Assembly (NCBI GenBank): GCA_017537745.1
Contig: JAFYKF010000005.1
Location: 1-39,226 of the forward strand
Origin: Candidatus Saccharimonadota bacterium
GTDB lineage: Bacteria; Patescibacteriota; Saccharimonadia; Saccharimonadales; Saccharimonadaceae
Reading direction: 5' to 3'
DNA length: 39,226 bases
The number at the start of each line of letters is the position of its first letter. The first letter of the stretch is position 1. The notes beneath the pieces are model-generated. The model searched no databases. It saw only the letters and a program-made list of their open reading frames with translations, and was not told the origin of the DNA. The position numbers and the translations under genes are program-made. This document shows positions 16,729-19,676 of this stretch, one piece after another.

Positions 16729-16804
16729 TGGTGACCCGGGTGCGAGTCGAACGCACAACCTCTTCCTTAGGACGGAATTGCTCTATCCATTGAGCCACCG
16801 GGCC
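16729..16804 (-). tRNA. tRNA-Arg (anticodon CCU)
   Basis: Read on the minus strand, the 76-nt sequence folds into a full cloverleaf. Acceptor GGCCCGG pairs with CCGGGTC (one G-U), followed by discriminator A and an encoded CCA. The D-arm is GCTC/GAGC, and the anticodon loop GTCCTAA gives U33, CCU and A37. The T-arm is GTGCG-TTCGACT-CGCAC. The 27-43 pair is A-G, a minor mismatch. It reads AGG arginine codons. It is divergent from the gene at 16830, whose -35 element lies inside the 5' end of the tRNA gene. Confidence 0.95.
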
Positions 16805-16829: not shown

Positions 16830-17837
16830 ATGAAACTACCCTCAAAGAAAGACAACAAAAAAACCGAACGCCAAAAAGTCGACGAACGTCGTGAGGAGGT
16901 TCTCGCGCGTGGACGTAAATTTAAGTATCCTCTGCAATTTACCAAATATCGTATCGTAATCAATACAGTCTTGATATCGATAATTGTTATTGCTATCTTG
17001 ATGGTAAGTGGCTGGCTGGCTTTGTATCGTTTTGGTATGACGAGCGAAATGCTATTCCGTGTCACCAAGATTGTTCCAGTCCCGGCCGCCACTATTGACG
17101 GTGAAAAAGTTCTCTTCTCGGACTATCTAATGCTTTATCGCAGTAGTATTAACAGCATTGAACGACAATCCGGCCAGGTCGACAACGAAGGAAACCTCGA
17201 TATCCTCCGTACTCAATACAAACGCTCCGCTCTTACTGAAGCCGAGAAATACACCTACGCCATCAAATTGGCTCGTGAATTAAATCTTGAAGTCACCGAT
17301 GAAGAAATCGACGAGGAATTCAATCGTCATCTCAGTATCGGCGGTATCAACCGCAGCGAAGAAGGTTTTCTGAAAATTGTTAGTGAGAACTTTGGCCTAA
17401 GTAAAGACGAGTATAGGAGAATGCTTTACCTTACCTTAATGAAAGTTAAGGTTGAAACTGCCATCGATGAACGTGCCAACGAGCTAGCGACCAAGGTCGA
17501 ATCAATACTTGCATCCAACGGTGGTAGCTACTCCGCCGTTGCCGAAGCTCTAGGCTCAGCTATTGAATATCAGGAAACTGGCGGCCTTGTCTCAAATCAA
17601 AATATTGATGGTGGCCGCGCATCGGAGGCATTTAAGCTCGAACCCGGCCAGCAATCTGGCAGGTTTATTTCAATGAACGGCGACGGCTACTATTTTGTTA
17701 AACTAAAGAATAAAACAGATACAGAAGTCAATTTTGTTTCTATTAAAATCCCATTTACTGAATTTGACCGCCGCTTTACCGAACTAACAGAGAACGACGG
17801 CCTCGACGAGCTAATCCGTATTACCAGTAACGACTAA
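16830..17837 (+). CDS. membrane-anchored SurA/PpiC-like foldase
   Basis: A 335-residue protein with a highly charged cytoplasmic N-terminus (KKDNKKTERQKVDERREEV), one membrane helix (about 41-65) and an extracytoplasmic part. The early LFSDYLMLYRSSINSIERQ, followed by a helical segment with LARELNLEVTDEEIDEEF and NFGLSKDEYRRMLYLTLMKVKVE, is the typical SurA_N/PrsA-type chaperone region. A degenerate parvulin-like domain follows (ETGGLVSNQNIDGG...FKLEPGQQSGRFISMNGDGYYFVKL, about 250-320). The family helps fold exported proteins, so it may serve the pilins and surface proteins encoded nearby. Catalytic proline-isomerase activity is uncertain. ATG 16830 is preferred to ATG 16809, which overlaps the -10 region. 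Confidence 0.8.
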   Translation: MKLPSKKDNKKTERQKVDERREEVLARGRKFKYPLQFTKYRIVINTVLISIIVIAILMVSGWLALYRFGMTSEMLFRVTKIVPVPAATIDGEKVLFSDYLMLYRSSINSIERQSGQVDNEGNLDILRTQYKRSALTEAEKYTYAIKLARELNLEVTDEEIDEEFNRHLSIGGINRSEEGFLKIVSENFGLSKDEYRRMLYLTLMKVKVETAIDERANELATKVESILASNGGSYSAVAEALGSAIEYQETGGLVSNQNIDGGRASEAFKLEPGQQSGRFISMNGDGYYFVKLKNKTDTEVNFVSIKIPFTEFDRRFTELTENDGLDELIRITSND

Positions 17838-17853
17838 AAGCTTCTCCATTTAA

Positions 17854-17880
17854 TGTTATAATATGTTTAATAATTATAAT
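17854..17880 (+). promoter_or_regulatory. promoter region of the GT8 gene
   Basis: Two -10 candidates: TGT-TATAAT (hexamer 17857-17862) and TATAAT (17875-17880). There is no clear -35. The AT-rich leader carries AGGAG at 17895-17899. Confidence 0.5.
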
Positions 17881-17910
17881 ATATCTATATGAATAGGAGA
17901 ATAATTGATT

Positions 17911-18687
17911 ATGCATAGCTACGTATGTGTATTATCCACAAATGAATATCTCGATGGACTATTGGTCATTAATGAAAATTTAAAAAGACTAAAAAGCAAT
18001 TATCCGTTATTGTGTTTAATAAACGAGAATATCAGTAAGGAAACGAGAGAAATACTGAATAAGTTCCAGATTCCATATAAAGAGCAAAAATCAGTTATTC
18101 TGGAAAGTGATTACGGCAAGACAAGATGGGGGTATACATTCGATAAACTAAACATCTTTAATTTAACTGAATACGAAAAAATAGTGTATCTTGACTTAGA
18201 TTTTTTGCTTTTAGAAAACATTGACCATCTATTTGACATTGATGTATTTTCTATGGTAAGTGACCATCCAAAATATGAAAATTATTATTGCAGTGCACTA
18301 ATGGTAATCAAGCCAAACAAAGATGACTATGACGCCTTGATCAGTCTGCTAGAAGAGAAGAATAAAAGCGGCGTAAGCGGCATTGGCGATCAAGACCTAA
18401 TCAACGAACATTTCAAAAATAATAAAAACAAAATTCCAATAGAATATAATTTTATTAAAGGTATAAAACCACAAATGATTGAGGTATTCGACGAAATAAA
18501 AGGCGAAACCACACAAAAGTATTTCTGTAAAGATTATTACTATTCGGAGAAGCCTAAAATAATACACTACTATGGCGACATAAAACCATTTTCAATAAAA
18601 AAGGAATTTGATGATGAATATTGCCATCTGTACTATTATTATCTGTCAATAGTAAGAAAGCAAAAGAGAAGGCTGACTCAGTCATAG
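17911..18687 (+). CDS. GT8-family (glycogenin-like) glycosyltransferase
   Basis: Family GT8 enzymes transfer sugars from nucleotide-sugars with retention of configuration. The N-terminus YVCVLSTNEYLDGLLVINENLKRLKS matches the glycogenin/galactinol-synthase opening. The metal-binding DxD is D95-L-D97 in IVYLDLDFLLLENID, a second GDQDL motif is at about 159-163, and the C-terminal KIIHYYGDIKPF corresponds to the conserved HF-G-KPW signature. It is 258 residues from ATG 17911, with AGGAG 11 nt upstream. The in-frame TTG at 17905 would put the RBS at 5 nt. Codon use is strongly A/T-ending compared with neighbouring genes, which suggests lateral acquisition. The acceptor is unknown; a cell-surface glycan or glycoprotein is plausible. 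Confidence 0.85.
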   Translation: MHSYVCVLSTNEYLDGLLVINENLKRLKSNYPLLCLINENISKETREILNKFQIPYKEQKSVILESDYGKTRWGYTFDKLNIFNLTEYEKIVYLDLDFLLLENIDHLFDIDVFSMVSDHPKYENYYCSALMVIKPNKDDYDALISLLEEKNKSGVSGIGDQDLINEHFKNNKNKIPIEYNFIKGIKPQMIEVFDEIKGETTQKYFCKDYYYSEKPKIIHYYGDIKPFSIKKEFDDEYCHLYYYYLSIVRKQKRRLTQS

Positions 18688-18721
18688 AAGTTGGTCTAAA
18701 GCAACCTAAGGCACGAACATA

Positions 18722-18750
18722 TTGACAAAAATAAGCATATATGATATAAT
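18722..18750 (+). promoter_or_regulatory. perfect consensus sigma70 promoter of the GC-rich orphan gene
   Basis: TTGACA (18722-18727), 17-bp spacer and TATAAT (18745-18750): exact consensus in both hexamers, the best promoter in the window. The predicted start near 18757 leaves a leader of about 170 nt before GTG 18926. Confidence 0.88.
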
Positions 18751-18756
18751 GAACGG

Positions 18757-18925
18757 ATAAGTCAATTCATTAGTAATTGATTAGGAATTTAATACGCAAG
18801 CTCCTCCTAGTAGGTATATTTCCACAACTCGTTCTGGGCATTAAAAATGGTTGGAACGAGTTGCGGAAAACACCGCCTCATAATTATTTTGGCGGTGAAA
18901 CCGCCACCAGGAGGGAGAGACTACA
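18757..18925 (+). promoter_or_regulatory. long structured 5' leader, candidate cis-regulatory RNA
   Basis: In order: a small hairpin TCAATT/AATTGA (18762-18780); CTCCTCCT (18801-18808), an anti-Shine-Dalgarno-like stretch; a long hairpin 18819-18869 with 10-bp core CAACTCGTTC/GAACGAGTTG extended by TTTCC/GGAAA across one mismatch; then two mutually exclusive hairpins sharing GGCGGT, namely CACCGCC (871-877 of this kilobase) with GGCGGTG (891-897), or TGGCGGT-GAA-ACCGCCA (18890-18906). The second ends just before the RBS AGGAGGGAG (18909-18917). CTCCTCCT can also pair with this RBS. The layout suggests translational control; no known riboswitch class is recognised. Confidence 0.55.
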
Positions 18926-19534
18926 GTGAAGATCGAAAAGTATTTCTTCTCGGACGAACACGAAAACCCGGTTTTCATCAAGGATGGCATCAAACCCATA
19001 TTTGTCTGCGGGCTGGTGTTTGGCAAACCCGGCTTCAGGGATGGCGCGTCCATCCGTACCTCTGATATCAAGGAAGTGGGGAAGGAATCCGTGACAACGG
19101 GGTCTGGCTCGGTGTACGAACTGGGCGAGATGAACCCCGACTATGTGGAAATGCTGGCGGCCAAGGCCGCTAAAATCCCGGTCATCACGGGATGGAGCAT
19201 GGAAAAAAGAATCCTTATGGATAGGACTCCTGACTCCCTCGAGGAGTATAAGGAGACCAAGACCCATGTCGGGTTTTTCCTTTCCGGCGAGACCACCGAC
19301 GGCGAATACATCGGCGGAGAAATCATCCGCCAGGAAGGGAGCTATGTCACCATGCTCACGCCTGATCCGAAGAGTTTGTTCCGCCTCGTCGAAACCAGGT
19401 GCTTCGTGTGCTGGAGAAACCTCTCGCTCGAAACGGAGGCCTTTATCGAGCTGACCGGCAAGGTCGCTGGATTGGCTTACGCCGACTTTGGCGACGCCTT
19501 CCTCATGAAGTGCCGCCCGAAGATTCCGGTTTAA
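18926..19534 (+). CDS. orphan protein of unknown function, GC-rich (probable transfer)
   Basis: Not recognised. The 202-residue product begins at GTG 18926, 8 nt after a strong AGGAGGGAG, with KIEKYFFSDEHENPVFI. It appears soluble, with no signal or membrane helix. Three cysteines are clustered late in the sequence (TRCFVCWRN, LMKCRPK). The codons strongly favour G/C in third position, unlike the AT-rich GT8 gene before it and the moderate neighbours. With its own consensus promoter, structured leader and a 13-bp hairpin after the stop, it is a self-contained transcription unit between two tRNA genes. A 218-codon frame on the opposite strand is a GC-driven shadow. Lateral origin is inferred from composition. 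Confidence 0.75.
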   Translation: MKIEKYFFSDEHENPVFIKDGIKPIFVCGLVFGKPGFRDGASIRTSDIKEVGKESVTTGSGSVYELGEMNPDYVEMLAAKAAKIPVITGWSMEKRILMDRTPDSLEEYKETKTHVGFFLSGETTDGEYIGGEIIRQEGSYVTMLTPDPKSLFRLVETRCFVCWRNLSLETEAFIELTGKVAGLAYADFGDAFLMKCRPKIPV

Positions 19535-19554
19535 CTTCAAATAATCTCAAGCTT

Positions 19555-19588
19555 GCGAAATCCCGGCCCTTGGCCGGGATTTCGCTTT
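19555..19588 (+). terminator. hairpin terminator after the orphan gene
   Basis: A perfect 13-bp GC-rich stem (19555-19567 with 19573-19585), loop CCTTG, followed by TTT. The T-run is short, but the hairpin is very stable. It closes the GC-rich transcription unit just before tRNA-Gly, which is transcribed toward it. Confidence 0.75.
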
Positions 19589-19601
19589 CACGAACTTAAC
19601 C

Positions 19602-19676
19602 TGGTGCGGGTAGAGGGAGTCGGACCCTCGTCTCATCCTTGGGAAGGATACATAATAGCCGTTATACGATACCCGC
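19602..19676 (-). tRNA. tRNA-Gly (anticodon CCC)
   Basis: Minus-strand 75-nt cloverleaf: acceptor GCGGGTA/TACCCGC, discriminator A and encoded CCA, D-loop with GG, anticodon stem TATCC/GGATG, loop TTCCCAA giving U33, CCC and A37, 4-nt variable loop, T-arm GAGGG-TCCGACT-CCCTC. The D-stem is weak (a T-T mismatch and a G-U pair). It reads GGG glycine codons. Confidence 0.93.

Follow-up and report, generated by a model that had tools for sequence, protein, structure and literature searches.

Structured leaders and interchangeable genes in bacteria

Among described systems, orphan riboswitch candidates and ribosomal-protein leaders come closest to the locus analysed here, as they likewise combine a covarying 5′ leader, pairing of the Shine-Dalgarno sequence (SD) and a same-strand position before genes. 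In contrast to those leader RNAs, the leader described below precedes unrelated orphan genes and no pathway or ribosomal genes, occurs (in our sample) in a single Saccharibacteria family, stands behind a near-constant promoter and has no match in Rfam 15. Integron cassettes offer a second comparison, being interchangeable single ORFs, mostly without an assigned function, at fixed expression sites. However, each of the present units has its own promoter, leader and 3′ hairpin, the units are scattered and often near tRNA genes, and the conserved hairpin lies upstream of the gene and is transcribed. The borders of exchange are at the start and stop of the ORF, so that there is no hint of attC and an integrase. 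A third resemblance concerns the encoded protein, which may have a domain (about residues 27-70) in common with small uncharacterised phage proteins of the phrog_11960 type, here set inside a 202-aa protein with an extra C-terminal part.

To our knowledge, little is known about gene regulation in Patescibacteria. Full-text literature searches found no structured-leader class for Saccharibacteria, and searches for Saccharibacteria together with structured RNA, integrons or orphan genes returned nothing relevant. The reading that we favour, with a probability of roughly 0.6, is that the cassette represents a two-part module, in which a strong extended sigma-70 promoter and a structured, family-specific leader stand before an interchangeable orphan gene with a 3′ hairpin, and in which the leader, through its fold around the SD, would co-regulate the genes so equipped. 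What the cassette exemplifies, a lineage-specific leader before exchangeable orphans, is more interesting than a single acquired gene. Such a leader class offers access to a regulon whose members are linked by an RNA instead of by gene function, and a clue to the circumstances in which these bacteria draw on lineage-specific genes, while start-to-stop replacement of ORFs gives a concrete, testable picture of how orphan genes move.

Layout and composition of the cassette

The window, meaning the whole stretch of DNA analysed (39,226 nucleotides), makes up a single 39-kb contig in a source genome of 838 kb that is 98% complete. The cassette and its surroundings comprise the following features.

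16729-16804: tRNA-Arg, separated from the cassette by ppiC-like and GT8 genes
18722-18750, plus strand: promoter TTGACA-17-TATAAT with an extended -10 (TG one base before the -10), exact match
18757-18925, plus strand: structured 5′ leader of the mRNA, 169 nt, its start placed from the promoter
18801-18808, plus strand: anti-SD arm (CUCCUCCU) of helix P1, pairing with the SD in single and consensus folds
18818-18870, plus strand: P2, a long conserved hairpin and the defining element of the RNA family
18871-18897, plus strand: hairpin CACCGCC/GGCGGUG of the single-sequence minimum-energy fold
18891-18905, plus strand: P3 hairpin GGCGGUGAAACCGCC, directly before the SD, from the consensus fold of four homologous leaders
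18909-18914, plus strand: SD AGGAGG, 3′ arm of P1, read from the sequence and predicted to be paired
18926-19534, plus strand: GTG-started ORF for a 202-aa orphan protein
19555-19585, plus strand: terminator-like hairpin, fold -28.3 kcal/mol
19602-19676, minus strand: tRNA-Gly (ccc), adjoining the cassette

An earlier note on this DNA had described a perfect promoter, a leader of about 170 nt with several hairpins, a GTG-started 202-aa gene of no recognised family and a 13-bp hairpin terminator, all isolated between tRNA-Arg and tRNA-Gly. The promoter proved to be the sole exact TTGACA-17-TATAAT in the window (chance expectation 0.01), and a near-identical 29-mer lies upstream of homologous leaders in other genomes. 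The leader is likewise as described, folding at -59.3 kcal/mol (z -6.2) with none of 200 shuffles equally stable, and the gene, which has AGGAGG upstream, encodes a protein without a match in Pfam or NCBIfam. The 3′ hairpin is present, but its stem has 14 bp, and the terminator scan of the window made no call there because the T-tract is weak. Adjacency to tRNA-Gly also holds, whereas adjacency to tRNA-Arg does not, ppiC-like and GT8 genes lying between.

The contrast that had been drawn between GC-rich codon use in the cassette and the AT-rich GT8 gene beside it (31% GC) extends to the window as a whole, with a GC3 of 0.73 (z +7) in the 202-aa gene against a mean of 0.42 (sd 0.04) in 30 other window genes. 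This gene prefers GGG, CTG, AAG and CCG, codons that are rare in the neighbouring genes. Since the excess includes such codons, it argues for foreign origin and not for translational tuning, and codon bias as translational optimisation was rejected for this reason.

The site of the cassette in related genomes points in the same direction. Relatives sharing the ppiC neighbour are Candidatus Saccharibacteria MAGs, many of them from the ruminant gut (sheep, goat, roe deer, yak, cattle), and ppiC was detected in 111 of 118 genomes of the genus. In many of the inspected loci tRNA-Gly(ccc) follows within about 200 bp after ppiC and the interval is empty; in others it holds different genes. Among the named relatives, CAMKOB010000010.1 is the closest in the ppiC-like protein (92% identity). 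The closest relative found, G322 (locus L093), with a ppiC that is likewise 92% identical, has no such gene, with a tRNA-Gly nearby in a rearranged region. A homolog of the window gene occupies the ppiC/tRNA-Gly site in G419 behind a short and unstructured leader, and in G059 the same interval contains the family leader with an oppositely oriented, unrelated ORF of 223 aa. As the site is empty or differently filled in relatives, it is variable, and the cassette in the window is no ancestral fixture. The proposal of the earlier note that the gene was acquired is thus supported: instead of gene and leader recurring here with normal composition in all relatives, the site is empty or variable, the closest relative has no such gene and GC3 is atypical. 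The wider ppiC/tRNA-Gly/argS junction (window 17837-19602; L093-L141) carries varied cargo genes across the genus, and its tRNA-Gly is inverted in several genomes.

The leader as an RNA family

Leaders of four members of the window-protein family are highly structured (z -5.7 to -7.0), and those of others are short and unstructured. Homologous leaders were reached by scanning other strong promoters of relatives, which led to G038:C23, where the promoter differs from that of the window at 2 of 29 bases and a leader of the same layout precedes a 219-aa protein unrelated to the window protein. A hairpin-tip pattern common to G038:C23, G057 and G329 then retrieved G059:C36 and G044:C17. Promoter and leader of the window, G038:C23, G059:C36 and G044:C17 can be aligned over the whole stretch between -35 box and SD, both included, with a mean column identity of 77%, and the proteins behind them have no BLASTP similarity to each other.

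The consensus fold of these four leaders has three helices: P1, formed by a CU-rich strand and the SD; P2, in which a 1x1 mismatch separates a 17-bp stem from a 5-bp stem capped by a 5-nt loop; and P3, a GGCGG-NNNNN-CCGCC hairpin before the SD. Compensatory changes occur at seven pairs among these four closest full leaders. P1 and P3 are based on few sequences, and the pairs of P3 are invariant in the four leaders and hence without covariation support. In the window copy the hairpin at 18871-18897 excludes P3, which it overlaps at 18891-18897, and this hairpin may be an alternative state of the window leader. Leaders beyond the closest group have mainly P2 in common.

Covariation in P2 was assessed in an alignment of 18 members from which the window was left out. 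Pairing is maintained in 95.7% of cells, two-sided changes occur at 16 of 22 pairs (64 cells), and the covariation score is 0.584 compared with 0.333 after shuffling (0/500 shuffles). Sliding the partner strand by one base causes every pairing measure to collapse. The upper half of the hairpin is conserved (UUUUGNYUAUCUANAUGGUAG), and the lower stem has diverged through compensatory changes. A CM-fitted alignment has a bias toward its own structure.

Read on the coding strand, P2 has 73 G-U pairs against 14 A-C mismatches, an excess that stems partly from two mostly-G-U positions and that points to a strand-specific single-stranded molecule. This asymmetry bears on the possibility that P2 acts as DNA, either as a palindromic operator or as an attC- or REP-like hairpin for a recombinase or transposase, to which its near-palindromic sequence and the matching of the models to the minus strand would be suited. 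The ratio is unexpected for a double-stranded operator, although a folded single DNA strand would give the same kind of asymmetry.

Among 174 genomes of the genus, a model from the four aligned leaders (R1) has matches with E ≤ 0.1 in 45, weak and minus-strand matches counted. The model from the 18-member P2 alignment (R2), built without the window, recovers 18818-18870 as its best match there (39.4 bits, E 2e-9) and is found in 31 of 392 genomes of the order, spread over three genera that all belong to the Saccharibacteria family of the window; it is absent from the other families sampled among these 392. Within the window's own genome it matches two further places (G000:C8:52048 and G000:C3:25379), both of which precede a different orphan gene. 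A search of the Rfam 15 families at gathering threshold reported tRNA alone, and the sub-threshold matches to the leader are weak hairpins, mostly of animal miRNA families, which were taken as chance. The leader therefore belongs to a covarying RNA family that is missing from Rfam 15.

Genomic context and accessibility of the Shine-Dalgarno sequence

In total, 48 copies of the leader were collected from 44 genomes, each in the 5′ position and on the same strand as the single ORF that follows it (median GC3 0.57). A promoter-like sequence lies 68-112 nt upstream in 46 of the 48, 35 being exact TTGACA-17-TATAAT, and a stable hairpin follows the stop in 36 of 47. P2 invariably separates the promoter from the SD, and its position in the transcript varies little, with medians of 57 nt after the inferred transcript start and 45 nt before the start codon. 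The ORFs behind the leader fall into 24 mutually unrelated BLASTP clusters; a Pfam scan of 20 cluster representatives returned matches to a nucleoside 2-deoxyribosyltransferase-like family and a leucine-rich-repeat-variant/HEAT family, plus one below threshold. A tRNA gene is present within 1 kb in 23 of the 48 copies, and tRNA density is 0.25 per kb at leader copies compared with 0.08 around other strong promoters.

The SD of the window copy has a predicted unpaired probability of 0.08. Across copies the mean is 0.23, and shuffling of the upstream leader raises it to 0.34 (Wilcoxon p 6e-4); in some copies the SD is accessible; hiding of the SD thus appears from these folds to be a real but moderate tendency. 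Because the SD tends to be paired, we infer that translation is controlled via the leader hairpin. By default the leader would fold with its SD paired to the upstream CU-rich strand, resulting in less translation. The conserved upper half of P2 might then be recognised by a factor acting in trans, be it a protein, an sRNA or a ligand, which would shift the fold, so that refolding would open the SD and scattered orphan genes could be co-regulated.

A constitutive leader, in which the long hairpin stabilises the mRNA or provides an RNase III site without any sensing, is an unlikely account of the same observations. It would be in keeping with long hairpins close to the 5′ end, with very strong promoters and with an occlusion of the SD that is not universal, but a stabiliser needs no conserved upper half above a compensating lower stem, and for a mere stabiliser the anti-SD strand would be superfluous.

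Exchange of genes behind a kept leader

A promoter-leader module lies next to tRNA genes in G018:C59, G056:C4 and G237:C18. Between G018 and G056, which are different species, identity is 90% from start-400 to start+7 and 83% from stop-7 to stop+399, whereas the ORFs in between (140 and 207 aa) have no similarity. G018 and G237 show a similar pattern, with 3′ similarity returning 8 and 44 nt past the stops. At this one tRNA-flanked locus, from which the evidence for precise exchange comes, the ORF has been swapped from start to stop between a kept leader and a kept 3′ flank. Exchange may have proceeded by recombination in the common leader and 3′ sequences once DNA had been taken up or otherwise transferred, and homologous recombination in the common flanks would be the simplest route. 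MAG assemblies may conceal errors, yet the pattern recurs in many independent genomes.

The reverse situation is seen in the window gene family, which carries the P2 leader in the window, G038:C21, G057 and G329 and lacks it in G002, G385 and G419. As one leader precedes unrelated ORFs and one gene family occurs with and without P2, leader and gene are separable. Consequently, of the earlier suggestion that the gene is under its own RNA-based control, the structured RNA leader stands, as a member of a covarying family, whereas "own" does not, given the 24 unrelated clusters. The leader-gene pair itself does recur elsewhere, in G038:C21, G057 and G329, but is not exclusive, the leader also standing before unrelated ORFs.

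That ORFs behind P2 are exchanged is what a DNA element serving a recombinase or transposase would account for. However, P2 stays fixed between promoter and SD at a near-constant transcript position, and the borders of exchange, one at the start codon and one close to the stop, lie away from P2, which makes a role as DNA decidedly improbable. Under the favoured reading of a transcribed leader before interchangeable genes, a broader picture may be sketched, of an ultra-small, probably host-dependent lineage with dispersed RNA-controlled expression sites, where ORFs are swapped start-to-stop between strains and a fast-changing stock of genes, probably directed at host or phage, would come under a single RNA-level control. 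This picture is tentative, and the odds are somewhat against it.

The orphan protein and its phage-like domain

A search of 99 genomes for homologs of the 202-aa protein found them in 5, the genome of the window counted, and a profile found them in 13 of 392 genomes of the order, distributed over two genera of one family. Those examined also sit in small units with a promoter-like sequence, an SD and a post-stop hairpin, and the protein family shares the motif G.VYG..GF.DG..I.TS.I....VT.SGS.YELG. A sequence search of the PDB gave no convincing match. Remote homology searches yielded a weak match to phrog_11960 (E 9.8e-5, residues 27-70; 1.6e-4 for the G038 homolog), and the AlphaFold model (pLDDT 73) has BFVD matches to small uncharacterised phage proteins, such as F4N9S4 of Pantoea phage LIMEzero. 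A small domain at about residues 25-68 thus resembles phage proteins, the C-terminal part is conserved in close relatives only, and the protein remains an orphan.

Foldseek against the PDB gave no match with E ≤ 0.001. When the model was re-aligned against Foldseek's PDB matches, residues 1-81 (18926-19168) aligned by VIA-align with the RFTS domain of DNMT1 (Z 8.6, rmsd 3.7, 79 aligned; model pLDDT 73) and with the SANTA domain of M18BP1 (Z 6.3, rmsd 3.3, 69 aligned), both near the top of the ranking, RFTS above SANTA; Pfam gave no match for the protein. As a lead only, the N-terminal part may be a bacterial or phage relative of a eukaryotic chromatin domain, or else a common barrel.

The phage-like N-terminal domain and the atypical composition would also suit one phage-type gene picked up recently and served by a leader of its own, the cassette being a moron of a phage or satellite, a view near to that of the earlier note. 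However, many genomes have the leader before genes that are unrelated to each other. Searches of 50,697 phage records found no copy of the protein or of the promoter with leader, and viral contigs had neither the protein nor the conserved promoter and hairpin patterns. A tblastn search of phages with the protein gave no match, and other phage searches were likewise empty or stayed within chance. Genome contigs and viral contigs, queried with the window protein or with the homolog from G038, returned nothing, and a plasmid search was empty. Although a short apical pattern occurs in 54 viral contigs, their hairpin matches are weak or partial (best E 0.002) and were taken as chance. Such an origin for the cassette as a whole is highly improbable.

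Other small units in the same and related genomes

Pattern searches, model searches and fetched stretches of the window's own genome identified at least 19 SD-bearing ORFs with GC3 of at least 0.55 behind strong promoters, for example G000:C2:9190 (L074), G000:C5:10582 (L080) and G000:C6:72021 (L091). These GC-rich orphan single-gene units, many with strong 3′ hairpins and most without the P2 leader, form a broader class. The idea that all GC-rich cassettes of the genome use the P2 leader was discarded on the same searches, in which three places match R2. The unit at G000:C2:9190 (L074:1578-1799) encodes a 74-aa zinc-ribbon protein that resembles the restriction alleviation protein Lar, with a Pfam E of 4e-6 that is marginally below the cut-off. 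Elsewhere in the genome, the predicted protein of G000:C9:44944 (L012:1604-2680) combines a Cro/C1-type HTH, sigma-70 region 4 and the C-terminal domain of the RNA polymerase alpha subunit.

Small ORFs are also found in series. In G002:C3 (L002), a short contig of 3020 bases, several lie head to tail, including a homolog of the window protein, and at least two have their own consensus-like promoters. The window's own genome further contains an AT-rich gene family whose products start with MSSKLLINVNDA..VVPDTGMFS. About ten copies are present, each behind a strong promoter (examples are L072, L084, L145, L148, L150, L158, L160, L161 and L171), and from their sequences the products look like membrane or surface proteins.
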